From: Clostridiales bacterium
Lineage (GTDB): Bacteria; Bacillota; Clostridia; Christensenellales; Pumilibacteraceae
Direction: 5' to 3'
Assembly (NCBI GenBank): GCA_022508425.1
Contig: JAFLVF010000002.1
Location: 1-59,930 of the forward strand
DNA: 59,930 bases
The notes beneath the pieces are model-generated. The model saw only the letters and a list, made by a program, of their open reading frames with translations, did no database searches and was not told the DNA's origin. The translations under genes were made by a program, and so were the position numbers. This document shows, piece by piece, positions 13,967 through 29,097 of this stretch (positions are counted from its first letter, which is position 1; each line of letters opens with the position of its first letter).

Positions 13967-15619
13967 ATGATTGAAGAGTGCGTCGTAAAGCGTGTGCATC
14001 GCGGCTACGCTTATATAGAGCTAAACCGCACCGAAGCGTGCGACAATTGCAAGTTGTGCGCTTTTAACAACCGAAAATCGCTCGTCGTTCCGGCAAAATG
14101 CAATGTAGCCGACGTGACGGTAGGCTCGCGTGTGATTGCCGAGATGCCGACGGAATCGGTCGGCGCGGCGCCGCTGCTCATATACGCCATACCGATAATA
14201 TTACTGTTTGTCGGGGCGCTGATAGGACTGCTCGGCAGCGTAATACTGCAGATATCTCTTGCGGCGGCGGGATTGGTCTTAGGGCTTGCGGCGGCATTCG
14301 TAATAGATAGAATTTACCGAAAAAAAGCGGGAGTTATCCCGACGATAACGGCAATACTCACTAACCACGACAAGGAGAATGATATGGATCTCGATAGCTT
14401 GAAAGAAATAGAAAATGTCGATCCCGAGCTTGCCAAGAGCATGAGAGGCGAGCTCAACCGCCAGCGTTCGAAGATAGAGCTTATCGCGAGCGAGAACTTC
14501 GTTTCGAAGGCGGTGCTCCAAGCGGCGGGCTCGCATCTGACCAACAAGTATGCCGAAGGGTATCCTTCCAAGCGGTATTACGGCGGTTGCGAGTACGTAG
14601 ACGAGGTGGAATCGCTCGCTATCGAGCGAGCAAAAGCGCTGTTCGGCGCAGATCACGCCAACGTTCAGCCGCACTGCGGCGCCAATGCCAACCACGCCGC
14701 GTTCTATGCCGTGCTCGAGCCGGGAGATACTTTCATGGGTATGAACTTAGCGCACGGCGGGCATTTGACGCACGGGTCCAAGGTCAATTATTCGGGAAGA
14801 TTCTACAATGTCGTGCCTTACGGCGTCGACGAGAATACGGAGACTATCGATTATAACGAAGTCGAAAGGATTGCGAAAGAGGTTAAACCCAAGCTCATTC
14901 TTGCAGGTGCTTCGGCGTATCCGCGCAAGATAGACTTTAAGGCGTTCCGCGATATTGCCGACAAGGTGGGTGCGGTGCTCATGGTAGACATGGCGCACAT
15001 CGCCGGCTTGGTCGCGGCCGGATTGCACGAAAATCCGGTGCCGTACGCCGACATCGTCACTACGACAACGCACAAGACCCTTCGCGGTCCGCGCGGAGGC
15101 ATGATACTTTGCAAAGAGCAGTACGCCAAGGCGATAGACAAAGCGATTTTTCCGGGCACGCAGGGCGGCCCGCTCGAGCATATCATCGCTGCAAAAGCGG
15201 TCGCATTGAAAGAAGCTGCGTCAGCCGAGTTCAAGCAGTACGCAAAACAAATCGTACTCAATGCCAAAGCAATTGAACAACAGTTGACCTCGCGCGGAAT
15301 AAAACTCGTTTCAGGCGGCACCGACAATCATTTACTGCTCATCAAGCTCGACGGCGTTACGGGGAAAGAGCTTGAAACACTTCTCGACGAGTGCAATATC
15401 ACCGTCAACAAGAACGCTATTCCGTTTGATCCGCTTCCGCCGTCAAAGACGTCCGGCATACGCATAGGCACGCCTGCCGTCACAACGCGCGGCATGAAAG
15501 AAGGCGAGATGAAGATTATTGCCGACTGCATCGCCGACGCGATATCTAAGGGCGAAAGCGCCAAGCCGGAAATCTTGTCGCGCGTTAAAAAACTTACAGA
15601 TACATTCAAGCTGTACTGA
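13967..15619 (+). CDS. RseC-like membrane domain in frame with serine hydroxymethyltransferase
   Basis: The open frame is 550 codons. Residues 1-139 are an RseC/MucC-type protein. It has a cysteine cluster (Cys25, Cys28, Cys31 in ACDNCKLC), a small soluble part and two membrane spans (about 68-90 and 94-113), ending in [18 protein letters not shown]. RseC proteins usually stop about here. Instead the frame continues through NHDKEND into a full-length GlyA. AAGGAG with a 6-base spacing precedes the GlyA ATG at 14384, so both a fusion and a separate GlyA could be made. RseC relatives act with Rnf-type redox complexes; a role here is unknown. No strong Shine-Dalgarno site precedes 13967. A sequencing error in the seven-A run near 14322 is possible but would give an atypical C-terminus. 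Confidence 0.7.
14384..15619 (+). CDS. glyA: Serine hydroxymethyltransferase (internal start)
   Basis: A 411-residue PLP enzyme that interconverts serine and glycine, with tetrahydrofolate as the one-carbon acceptor. This length is normal for bacterial GlyA. Motifs are [56 protein letters not shown] and the PLP-lysine site [15 protein letters not shown]-terminally it has [11 protein letters not shown] and [14 protein letters not shown]. The AAGGAG at 14372-14377 spaced 6 bases from this ATG strongly suggests that free GlyA is made. It supplies one-carbon units that folD and trmFO also use. The same frame is open back to 13967. Confidence 0.95.
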
Positions 15620-25911: not shown

Positions 25912-26958
25912 ATGACAAGACAAGTTAGGATAAAAAACATCGTCATCGGCGGCGGCAATAAGATTGCCGTTCAGTCGATGACCAATACCGATACTCTCGA
26001 TACGGAAGCTACAATCAAGCAGCTCGGTGCGCTTCAATCGGCCGGGTGCGATATAGCGCGCCTTGCCGTGTCGAGCGAGAGGGAAGTCGACGCATCGAAA
26101 GCGTATATCGGCAAGTTCGATATGCCGCTTGTTGCCGATATCCAGTTCGATTACAGGCTCGCCGTCAAGTGCTGTGAAATAGGCTTTGACAAAATTCGTT
26201 TCAATCCCGGCAACATAGGCGACGAGAGCAAGGTCAAAATTCTCGTGGACGCGGCAAAATCTCATAACGTGCCCATTCGCATAGGCGTAAATACAGGCTC
26301 GCTCGAGGACGAGTTCAAATCCATGCCGAAAAGCGACGCGCTTGTAAACAGCGCTATCAAGCATGTAAGGCTGCTTGAGAAGTTCGGTTTTTACGATACA
26401 GTCATTTCGGTCAAATCATCCGACGTCAAGACCATGGTCGACGCATATCGAAAGCTGTCCGACACCGTCGACTACCCGTTACATATCGGCGTGACGGAGA
26501 GCGGCGCGGACGAGCGCGGATTAGTGCGCTCGGCGATTGGTATAGGCGCGCTGTTGATGGACGGAATAGGCGACACATTGCGCGTATCGCTGTCCGGCGA
26601 TCCCGTAAAGGAAGTTGAGGCTGCGAAGCTGATTTTGCAAGAGAGCGGAGTCGACAAGAATTTCTGCGAAATAATCTCATGCCCGACATGCTCGCGCTGT
26701 AAGTACGATCTGAAATCGATTGTGGACGAGCTAAAGGCTAAGACGGCGCACGTCACGACTCCTGTCAAGATGGCAGTAATGGGCTGTGTGGTAAACGGCC
26801 CGGGCGAAGCGGCCGACGCAGACTTCGGCTGTGCGGGCGGCGGTGCCGGCAAGGCGGCGATCTTCGTACACGGCAAGGTCGTCAAGACGGTAGAGTATTC
26901 GCAAGTGTTGCCCGAGCTTCTCGCGCTTACCGAACAAAAGATAAAGGGCAGTTTGTAA
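25912..26958 (+). CDS. ispG: (E)-4-hydroxy-3-methylbut-2-enyl-diphosphate synthase
   Basis: A 348-residue iron-sulfur enzyme, the penultimate step of the MEP pathway. The N-terminal barrel has IGGGNKIAVQSMTNTDT and PLVADIQFDYRLAV. FNPGNIGDESKV and RIGVNTGSLEDEF follow. The C-terminal cluster-binding part has SCPTCSRCKYDL and MGCVVNGPGEAADADFGCAGG. Iron-sulfur assembly by iscS supports it. It has its own promoter and probably a leaderless mRNA. Confidence 0.95.
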   Translation: MTRQVRIKNIVIGGGNKIAVQSMTNTDTLDTEATIKQLGALQSAGCDIARLAVSSEREVDASKAYIGKFDMPLVADIQFDYRLAVKCCEIGFDKIRFNPGNIGDESKVKILVDAAKSHNVPIRIGVNTGSLEDEFKSMPKSDALVNSAIKHVRLLEKFGFYDTVISVKSSDVKTMVDAYRKLSDTVDYPLHIGVTESGADERGLVRSAIGIGALLMDGIGDTLRVSLSGDPVKEVEAAKLILQESGVDKNFCEIISCPTCSRCKYDLKSIVDELKAKTAHVTTPVKMAVMGCVVNGPGEAADADFGCAGGGAGKAAIFVHGKVVKTVEYSQVLPELLALTEQKIKGSL

Positions 26959-26963
26959 TAAGC

Positions 26964-28460
26964 ATGAATAAGATATATACGCAAATCAACGAGAAAACAG
27001 GCGGCAAATTTTCTCACGTTCGCTTTCCACACGTAGAGCTGGCGGACGGAAAAGTGACTGTGACGGTTGCCTGTGCCGCAGACAACATCGACGGCGTAAA
27101 ATCGTGCGCCGACGAGATAAAGAAGCTTATAAAGCAAATCTGCGCCTTTAACGCGCCTGTTTTTCTTGATTTTGCCGTAATCGAGCATACTCCGCGCGCA
27201 TTGCGCGACAATGTTGTAGCGTTTGTCGGCAAGTTCCCGTTTGCTTCGTCAATTGCCGACAAGATAACGGCGCCAAGCGGCACGAGCGTTAGGCTCGAAA
27301 TGCACAGGAGCATGTACGAGCTGGCGCAAGACGAATTTTTCGATAGGCTGGACGAGCATTTGAAGAATTGCTTCTTGTTGCCTATATCCGTCGAGACCGA
27401 GATTACCGAGTACACTCCGCCGCAGGAAAAGGCCGTCAAGAAAACGGTTAGATCTACGTACACTGTTTCCGACGTCGTGCCGCTGTCGTGCGACAATGCG
27501 GGCGTTTTTGCGCTCGAGGCAAAAGCCGCGGGCGCGGTCGACGGGTACGGAGAGAATATCACCGTTTGCGGCGTGCTCGTGATGGCAACCGAATTTATGA
27601 GCAAGGGCGGCGGCGCCAAAAGGTCGCGACCTTATGAGAAATTTTTGCTCTGCGACGGAGAGCAGATATTGCAGTGCAGATTTTTTCCGCACGGCGATTG
27701 TTTGATAGTGAAGGCAGACTTGCTCGGGAAAGTAGTCTGCGTCGTCGGCGACGCCCAAGTGGAGCGCGGGCGCGGCGGCGAGGTGTCGCTGACGGCAAAG
27801 GAAATCGCTACATGCTCTGCGCAGGGGATAGGGGAGCTCAAGCCGTTTGCGGCACCTAATGCTTATGCTACGGTATCGCCCAAGCCGTACGAAGAATATG
27901 TGCAGGCGAGCCTGTTCGGCGGGGAGGATGATATTCCGCAGTCGCTGAAATGCAGCTTTGTCGCATTCGACTTCGAGACGACAGGTCTGTCAATCGATTA
28001 CGACATGCCGACAGAGCTCGGCGCGGTAAAAATAGTCGACGGTGTGATAACCGAAACGTTCCACACAATGATAGACCCGTGCAGACCTATACCCGAGATC
28101 GTATCGCAAAAGACCGGTATCACCGACGATATGGTCAAGGGTCAGCCTCGCTTCGAGGACGTTTTGCCCGACTTTTTTAAGTTTTGCGAGGGTAGCGCTC
28201 TCATCGGACATAATATAGCGTTCGATTTTCCATTCCTCATCAAGCACGGCAATCGACACGGAATATCGTTTGCGAAAAAGCGCACGTTCGACACGCTCGG
28301 CATGGCGCCGCGTGCAATCCCCGGTATTGACACCCTTACTCTCGACAATGTGCTTGAAAATCTAGGGCTTACCAACGACAATGCCCACCGCGCATTGTCC
28401 GACGCTACTGCGACTGCCAAGGCCTTTATCGCGATGTCTAAACTTATCGCGAAACAGTAG
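26964..28460 (+). CDS. PolC-related protein: N-terminal and OB-like parts plus DEDDh exonuclease, no polymerase domain
   Basis: This 498-residue protein occupies the place of the replicative polymerase gene polC, between ispG and rimP. Residues about 1-160 resemble the PolC N-terminal domain. Residues about 200-290 look like an OB-fold (ENITVCGVLVMATEF, then LIVKADLLGKVVCVVGD). Residues about 328-495 are a complete 3'-5' exonuclease with all five DEDDh residues: Asp336, Glu338 (AFDFETTG), Asp421 (HNIAFDF), His475 and Asp480 (NAHRALSDA). PolC is normally about 1,400 residues with PHP, palm and finger domains after and around the exonuclease; none is present. The frame is clean and ends in a normal stop. 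It could be a stand-alone proofreading subunit or a separate nuclease. No clear ribosome site precedes the ATG. Confidence 0.8.
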   Translation: MNKIYTQINEKTGGKFSHVRFPHVELADGKVTVTVACAADNIDGVKSCADEIKKLIKQICAFNAPVFLDFAVIEHTPRALRDNVVAFVGKFPFASSIADKITAPSGTSVRLEMHRSMYELAQDEFFDRLDEHLKNCFLLPISVETEITEYTPPQEKAVKKTVRSTYTVSDVVPLSCDNAGVFALEAKAAGAVDGYGENITVCGVLVMATEFMSKGGGAKRSRPYEKFLLCDGEQILQCRFFPHGDCLIVKADLLGKVVCVVGDAQVERGRGGEVSLTAKEIATCSAQGIGELKPFAAPNAYATVSPKPYEEYVQASLFGGEDDIPQSLKCSFVAFDFETTGLSIDYDMPTELGAVKIVDGVITETFHTMIDPCRPIPEIVSQKTGITDDMVKGQPRFEDVLPDFFKFCEGSALIGHNIAFDFPFLIKHGNRHGISFAKKRTFDTLGMAPRAIPGIDTLTLDNVLENLGLTNDNAHRALSDATATAKAFIAMSKLIAKQ

Positions 28461-28592: not shown

Positions 28593-28623
28593 ATTGCTGT
28601 TAGGGACTTTTCGGAGGATAAGT

Positions 28624-29097
28624 ATCAATAGCGTAATTGAAAAGGCTAAGCCTACTATATCGGCGGTGCTCGACGAGCTCGGTTACGAGCTTGTCGATTT
28701 GGAGTACAAAACTCTGTACGGCGACAAACACCTCATTGTATACATCGCACGCGAGGGCGGAATCAGCCTCGACGATTGCGAGAAGGTGTCTAACGCTTTG
28801 GATAAGCCGCTTGACTCGCTCGATCCGACGGGAAACAGTCCGTACTGCCTCGACGTTTCGTCGCCCGGACTCGACCGCCCGTTCAAGACCCGTCGCGACT
28901 ACGAGCGCAATTTCGGAGAGCAGGTGGAAATCAAGCTTTACGCGCCGCTCGATCCGACTAAATCTAAGGACAAACTCGTTGTCGGTACGCTCGTCGGTTA
29001 TGACGAAACGGGCGTTACGGTCGAAACCGACGGCGGGGAGCAAGTGATAGAGCACAACAAAATAGCTCTCGCTCGGCCGTATGTGGATTTTTCATAG
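28624..29097 (+). CDS. rimP: Ribosome maturation factor RimP (apparent ATC start)
   Basis: A 157-residue RimP needed for 30S subunit assembly. From residue 2 it reads NSVIEKAKPTISAVLDELGYELVD, the normal RimP N-terminus. The core LDVSSPGLDRPFKTRRDYERNFGE follows, then the C-terminal SH3-like part (about 90-157). GGAGG (28613-28617) is followed after 6 bases by ATC in the right frame. No ATG, GTG or TTG lies between the ribosome site and the conserved region. The only conventional start is a TTG at 28594, upstream of the Shine-Dalgarno site and lacking its own. I therefore prefer the ATC start, a rare codon known from infC and pcnB style regulation (AUU there). Confidence 0.85.
   Translation: MNSVIEKAKPTISAVLDELGYELVDLEYKTLYGDKHLIVYIAREGGISLDDCEKVSNALDKPLDSLDPTGNSPYCLDVSSPGLDRPFKTRRDYERNFGEQVEIKLYAPLDPTKSKDKLVVGTLVGYDETGVTVETDGGEQVIEHNKIALARPYVDFS

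Follow-up and report, generated by a model that had tools for sequence, protein, structure and literature searches.

The window, that is, the whole 59,930-nt stretch of DNA analyzed here, carries at the place of polC an open reading frame (ORF) that encodes, judging from profile comparison, the N-terminal region and OB domain of PolC, in the same order, followed by a DEDDh exonuclease, and from which the PHP, palm, and fingers domains and the polymerase active site are all missing. This short form of PolC is not peculiar to the window but clade-wide, which had gone unnoticed in the preliminary description of this DNA. The best reading of the sequence evidence is probably that the protein, the product of a one-time truncation of polC, is an exonuclease tethered to the clamp and acting in trans as a proofreader for DnaE. 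More tentatively, with doubt slightly outweighing confidence, we propose that a single conversion, in the common ancestor of 16 or more families, made polC the gene of a clamp-binding replisome subunit without polymerase, one that would have served first as a trans-proofreader of DnaE and then, in several lineages, as a catalytically dead structural subunit, selection having kept the N-terminal, OB, and clamp-contact parts and not synthesis.

A reading frame with PolC N-terminal and exonuclease domains

The ORF (Table 1) starts 5 nt after the ispG stop codon, and only 133 nt lie between its own stop and the rimP frame, so a polymerase segment cannot fit there. The C terminus of the protein is the end of the exonuclease, and the PHP half is found on neither side of that domain. 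The preliminary description had reported a 498-residue ORF at the polC place near ispG and rimP, lacking PHP, palm, and finger domains and closed by a clean stop, and all of this holds.

Table 1. Features of the short polC locus in the window (residue numbers refer to the short protein)
Feature	Coordinates	Strand	Basis
ispG, upstream neighbor of the short ORF	25912..26958	+	profile searches
PolC-derived polymerase-less protein, 498 aa	26964..28460	+	ATG to TAG, 498 codons
N-terminal region, about residues 1-195, homologous to PolC N-terminal domains	26964..27548	+	hhalign
OB domain, about residues 197-288	27552..27827	+	hhalign and profile match to 3f2b
QASLF (residues 314-318), clamp-binding-type motif of the linker between OB domain and exonuclease	27903..27917	+	sequence
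DEDDh 3'-5' exonuclease domain, residues 330-495 (D336, E338, D421, H475, D480)	27951..28448	+	
rimP, downstream neighbor of the short ORF	28594..29097	+	profile searches

Pfam returned no match at E ≤ 1 for N-terminal domains of the ORF and a weak OB match (E 0.028, below the cut-off); its silence on the N-terminal domains made a profile comparison necessary. A profile of 42 distinct short proteins was aligned with one built from the N-terminal regions of 12 full PolCs of the same order, and the two were colinear over 290 columns (E 3.7e-18). Taken alone, the region before the OB domain matched full PolC at E 4.8e-7 and the OB domain at E 6.5e-14 (hhalign). Controls with the region before the OB domain gave E 0.53-0.88 for five column shuffles, E 0.26 for the reversed profile, and E 0.054-0.8 against alignments of dxr, rseP, ispG, rimP, nusA, infB, and DnaE. 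The OB domain of the short form also matches DnaE weakly (E 6e-5), as expected because DnaE has an OB domain of its own, and a profile search of solved structures placed it on the Geobacillus kaustophilus PolC 3f2b (E 0.0016). In full PolC, the PHP sequence that precedes the exonuclease ends, for example, in GVEAYL or GMEGYL; the short form has a linker instead. The likeness of residues 1-300 to the PolC N-terminal and OB regions, first suggested in the preliminary description, is thus borne out by a comparison with controls, which also rules out an ordinary DnaQ-type nuclease.

The exonuclease was identified as Pfam RNase_T at residues 333-488 (E 8.4e-33). NCBIfam PolC models align over this part of the ORF only (residues 329-496 on model positions 422-589 of 1445), and the score against TIGR01405 (133.8 bits, exonuclease part only) is below the PolC cut-off of 1043 bits. 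When the ORF was compared by phmmer with the sequences of solved structures, the best match was the PolC exonuclease 2p1j (E 3.7e-30), with further matches to full-length PolC 9qpc (4.1e-24) and E. coli epsilon 1j53 (4.7e-11); by these E-values and the accompanying PolC domains, the short-form exonuclease is not nearer to proteobacterial DnaQ than to the PolC exonuclease. The five catalytic residues are invariant in a 27-sequence alignment and all present in 79 of the 81 distinct short proteins of a first collection, from which six identical copies and seven loci had been removed (L061, another exonuclease gene; L124, L134, L138, L159, and L172, pieces of full PolC; L122, a fragment); 19 of the 81 come from the genus of the window, some near-identical, and are thus not independent. 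Among 14 closest pairs, all from that genus and none including the window's own protein, dN/dS was 0.013-0.093 for the exonuclease, 0.084-0.161 for the N-terminal region, and 0.041-0.148 for the OB domain (12 pairs, being undefined in two). The earlier observation of five intact DEDDh residues, and the argument that an intact active site speaks against decay, are supported by the profile comparison, the locus, the residues themselves, and the low dN/dS among relatives.

Examination of the same locus in close relatives, as the preliminary description had advised, recovered the short form at the same place in three sets of relatives. One of ispG, rseP, or dxr lies upstream in 19/19 loci of a 10-kb set, 38/38 of a named set, and 19/19 of the window's genus, and one of rimP, nusA, or infB lies downstream in 17/19, 36/38, and 16/19, respectively. 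Among 20 full-PolC loci examined with 5-kb flanks, an upstream neighbor was recognizable in 17, a downstream neighbor in 10, and both in 9. The short form and full PolC therefore have the upstream side in common, and the downstream side is not retained by every PolC bearer. With recognizable neighbors on both sides of only nine full-PolC loci, the location between ispG and rimP is no strict hallmark of PolC in the order, and strictly conserved gene order as a proof of descent is weakened. Gene order 3' of polC seems variable in the order, ten full-PolC loci (L182, L183, L185, L187, L189, L191, L192, L193, L195, and L197) having no recognized rimP, nusA, or infB in the fetched flank. Elsewhere in the window, positions 13967-15619 of the plus strand encode an RseC/MucC domain (residues 7-125) fused in frame to serine hydroxymethyltransferase (149-522).

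Replicative polymerases and the distribution of the short form

The genome of the window is 1.83 Mb in 150 contigs, 94% complete with 6.6% contamination. A PF07733 search identified a single polymerase, DnaE, in a 1187-aa open frame (contig C86, L001). The PolC model matched only exonucleases and DnaE in this genome, with no PolC polymerase part, and one of the other exonucleases is short and DnaQ-like (189-aa frame, contig C24). The genome search that the preliminary description had called for, covering a full polC, a polymerase-only piece, and dnaE, thus returned only DnaE, and a full polC elsewhere was not found. We extended the polymerase survey to 61 genomes, the window's own and 60 relatives. 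DnaE was the only complete C-family polymerase seen in short-form genomes, three of which (G018, G019, and G034) give an additional match, short and partial, in frames of 323-445 aa. Full-PolC genomes encode both DnaE and PolC, except for one of family f12 (G047, 86% complete) in which only PolC was found. One genome that is 51% complete (G042) gave seven polymerase matches of mixed kinds.

The short form was then placed in its order of Clostridia, which we take to be the Christensenellales of GTDB, using genomes at least 85% complete. PolC exceeded the cut-off in 89 of 296 genomes and did not in 207, of which 200 fall in 16 families (f1, f3, f6, f8, f9, f10, f14, f15, f17, f19, f20, f21, f25, f28, f29, and f30), none of whose genomes exceeds the cut-off. 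The remaining seven (G073, G082, G093, G125, G127, G183, and G317) belong to families otherwise with PolC, some having it split over contigs. Part of the 200 genomes were inspected, and each of the 16 families contains one or more genomes in which the short form was seen, in f21 only as a partial match in a 537-aa frame and in f30 in a 466-aa frame. In the window's genus it is present in 19 of 20 genomes, one copy being in two pieces (G003); the other genome, in 410 contigs, had no match (G008). A scan of named genomes found it, among the matches listed, in Candidatus Coproplasma and Candidatus Gallimonas, which NCBI places in the Clostridia. The carriers are a large group of mostly uncultured Clostridia.

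Across the class, full PolC was found in 108 of 118 genomes, and outside the order in 107 of 112. Two of the five class genomes outside the order without PolC above the cut-off have PolC pieces at contig ends (G403 and G428). The other three were searched for the short form, and none has it: G350 and G419 (f64) gave no match, and G397 (f63) has only short exonucleases. These three are possible independent complete losses of PolC or assembly gaps.

To place the short-form lineages relative to one another, we constructed a phylogenetic tree (FastTree, LG) from up to six flanking proteins of 59 taxa, with missing genes and with f17 left out; midpoint rooting was used, the eight outgroup loci not forming one clade. 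All sampled short-form lineages fell into a single clade (support 1.0, branch 0.205) that adjoins family f11 (0.891) and is nested inside PolC-bearing families. The monophyly of the short-form lineages among PolC bearers indicates one loss.

A clamp-binding-type motif and exonuclease-dead relatives

The short protein of the window has the sequence QASLF between the OB domain and the exonuclease, a feature new here that had gone unnoticed in the preliminary description. Q314 does not vary in the 27-sequence alignment, and F318 hardly does. Among the 81 distinct short proteins, the linker contains the strict motif Qxx[LMF]F in 62 and the loose motif Qxx[LMFIV][FLMYI] in 72, leaving 9 without even the loose form, and Q occupies the aligned motif position in 73. 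Shuffling the linkers 500 times gave a mean of 0.8 and a maximum of 4 for the strict motif and a mean of 7.0 and a maximum of 15 for the loose one, and at the linker place of 48 full PolCs the strict motif occurs in none and the loose motif in 2; chance is ruled out by both comparisons. The last 25 residues of 43 of the 48 full PolCs contain the loose motif, and of the five exceptions three appear truncated within the gene (L157, L168, and L174) and two have a variant at their end (L143 and L146). QxxLF is given as a clamp motif of the DnaE1/PolC kind (PMC3919608), and residues 314-318 of the short protein are an apparent sliding-clamp-binding motif by this resemblance. The DnaE of the window's genome has a clamp motif as well, QMSFF, placed much as in its relatives.

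A broken PHP site in DnaE as the reason for keeping a separate exonuclease was ruled out, since all nine PHP metal ligands are kept in 30 of 30 aligned DnaE sequences, including that of the window's genome. The nine-ligand pattern has been scored as an active PHP proofreader (PMC12926913), and the short-form exonuclease therefore need not be the main proofreader. The DnaE PHP domain of the aligned f1 genomes has an insertion of about 20-40 residues between the TDH and GCE motifs, which is also present in f17 and f19 DnaE and not in that of f10, f20, or f25.

An intact DEDDh set is missing from 22 distinct short proteins of three lineages, f1 genus g8, f17, and f20 (L200, L201, L204, L206, L207, L209, L220-L225, L227-L230, L232, L234-L236, L239, and L240), the alignment of the dead exonuclease domains being uncertain; two f20 members, of genus g95, do have the intact set. 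The 22 proteins are encoded by ORFs of 489-559 aa, and Q occupies the first place of the motif in all of them, its hydrophobic end being often altered. Their locus is kept as well, with ispG upstream in 22/22 and rimP downstream in 19/22. Among their 12 closest pairs, dN/dS was computable in 22 of 36 cells and never exceeded 0.236, dS being high or saturated. Retention of a frame of about 500 aa and of the motif glutamine indicates that catalysis is dispensable in these lineages. It must have been lost on two or more occasions, since the f1 and f20 cases occupy separate positions in the tree. The persistence of the protein in lineages whose exonuclease is dead makes a further, noncatalytic role of short PolC in the replisome likely.

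Proposed role and comparison with known replicases

Sequence and tree indicate the following course of events. In the ancestor of a large clade within the order, a single truncation removed from polC the N-terminal half of the PHP domain together with all that follows the exonuclease. The N-terminal region, the OB domain, and the exonuclease remained in place, the linker between the latter two bearing a clamp-binding-type motif, and DnaE was left as the sole C-family polymerase of the cell. We further suggest that residues 314-318 of the short protein may occupy one of the pockets of the sliding clamp, with DnaE using another through its own motif, and that the N-terminal domains of the short protein perhaps touch the clamp loader. 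Mispaired 3' ends would then be trimmed for DnaE in trans, by analogy with the B. subtilis PolC exonuclease in vitro, and a second, noncatalytic replisome role is likely alongside proofreading. Loss of the polymerase together with retention of a usually intact nuclease and an apparent clamp motif suggests service to DnaE. Of the options raised in the preliminary description, a proofreading subunit working with a DnaE-type polymerase fits best, qualified by the PHP site of DnaE itself and by the exonuclease-dead relatives, which point to a further role.

The strongest rival, although an unlikely one, is a replisome scaffold bound to the clamp and clamp loader, in which the N-terminal region, OB domain, and motif are the retained function and the exonuclease is secondary or optional. 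The 22 exonuclease-dead members that keep the frame, the motif glutamine, and the locus (in f1 a single genus) speak for it, as do the intact PHP site of DnaE and the description of PolC N-terminal subdomains as related to tau domain V (PMC12926913); retention of all five catalytic residues in nearly all of the first collection speaks against it, and so does the stronger constraint on the exonuclease in the window's genus, where its dN/dS is below that of the N-terminal region in 14/14 pairs and below that of the OB domain in 10 of the 12 defined. Less probable still is a clamp-tethered repair exonuclease, engaged in mismatch excision or trimming of Okazaki ends and having little to do with DnaE proofreading. 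Such an enzyme would also be compatible with a clamp motif joined to an exonuclease and with a DnaE that has its own PHP site, but the short protein descends from PolC and has kept the PolC N-terminal domains at the place of polC, both of which point to the replisome, and in B. subtilis DnaE is known to be served by the PolC exonuclease (PMC5627055). Half of a split PolC, the other option raised earlier, would account for an N-terminal half standing alone at the locus and is rejected as highly improbable, since DnaE is the one C-family polymerase found in the window's genome and the only complete one seen in surveyed short-form relatives, and none of the 200 genomes of the 16 families has a PolC match above the cut-off. 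A decaying pseudogene or an assembly artefact, which the fragmented and partly contaminated assembly might suggest, is dismissed with the same firmness on the recurrence of the form in nearly all genomes of the genus and in 16 families, the DEDDh conservation, and dN/dS well below 1 among relatives.

Timinskas and colleagues distinguish three bacterial replicase sets, DnaE1 alone, PolC with DnaE1, and PolC with DnaE3 (PMC3919608). The clostridial set of PolC with DnaE1, in which the PHP sites are described as active (PMC3919608, PMC12926913), was called experimentally uncharacterized, and the question was raised of whether DnaE1 is the normal replicator there, with PolC needed only in specific situations (PMC3919608). 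The short-form clade amounts to a natural experiment on this question, in which the PolC polymerase could be dropped for good and the N-terminal and, usually, the proofreading part were kept. The clade makes the passage from two polymerases to one traceable and supplies a trans-proofreader open to testing, and these Bacillota would by inference lack the target of inhibitors of the PolC polymerase. DnaE1-only Clostridia and exonuclease-lacking PolC have been noted (PMC3919608), and PolC loss has been discussed together with GC content (PMC3774996). The excerpts of PMC3919608 and PMC12926913 available to us contain no mention of a polymerase-lacking PolC, and a title and abstract search, whose coverage stops short of subscription journals and preprints, found no report of one.

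Among the closest known systems is PolC itself, the DNA polymerase III alpha subunit of Bacillota (TIGR01405, NF001688), which has a homologous N-terminal region, OB domain, and DEDDh exonuclease in the same order and at the same locus downstream of ispG. The short form differs in lacking PHP, palm, fingers, and the C-terminal part (498 residues, compared with open frames of 1398-1568 in 12 full PolCs) and in bearing its clamp-type motif in the OB-exonuclease linker, whereas that of PolC is at the C terminus. PolC without the exonuclease insertion, described in some Clostridia and Negativicutes (PMC3919608), likewise separates polymerase from exonuclease and is the mirror image of the short form, the polymerase having stayed and the exonuclease having been lost. 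Our survey contains apparent examples of that type, PolC frames of 1200-1323 aa in which the exonuclease part of the model is unmatched (candidates of 1225-1323 aa in G322, G326, G352, G355, G379, G380, G382, G396, G400, G402, G423, and G424); G322 and G326 have separate short exonucleases beside the exonuclease-skipping PolC. A further genome carries, in addition to a full PolC, a second, partial one (G264:C95:6435-9638; 908 bits, 1091-aa frame).

As a stand-alone DEDDh exonuclease with an adjoining clamp-binding-type motif alongside a DnaE-type replicating enzyme, the short form resembles E. coli DnaQ/epsilon, from which it differs in its PolC origin, its PolC N-terminal and OB domains, and a motif placed before the exonuclease; the clamp-binding motif of epsilon lies after its exonuclease. 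A DnaE-binding tail was not identified in the short form. A kinship with tau domain V has been described for the PolC subdomains NI and NII (PMC12926913). DnaE is stimulated in vitro by PolC deficient in its polymerase (PMC5627055). In B. subtilis, errors made by DnaE are corrected by the PolC exonuclease within a template-DnaE-PolC complex (PMC5627055); this exonuclease acts, as would that of the short form, on a 3' end made by DnaE, but PolC there is full length and the main replicase.
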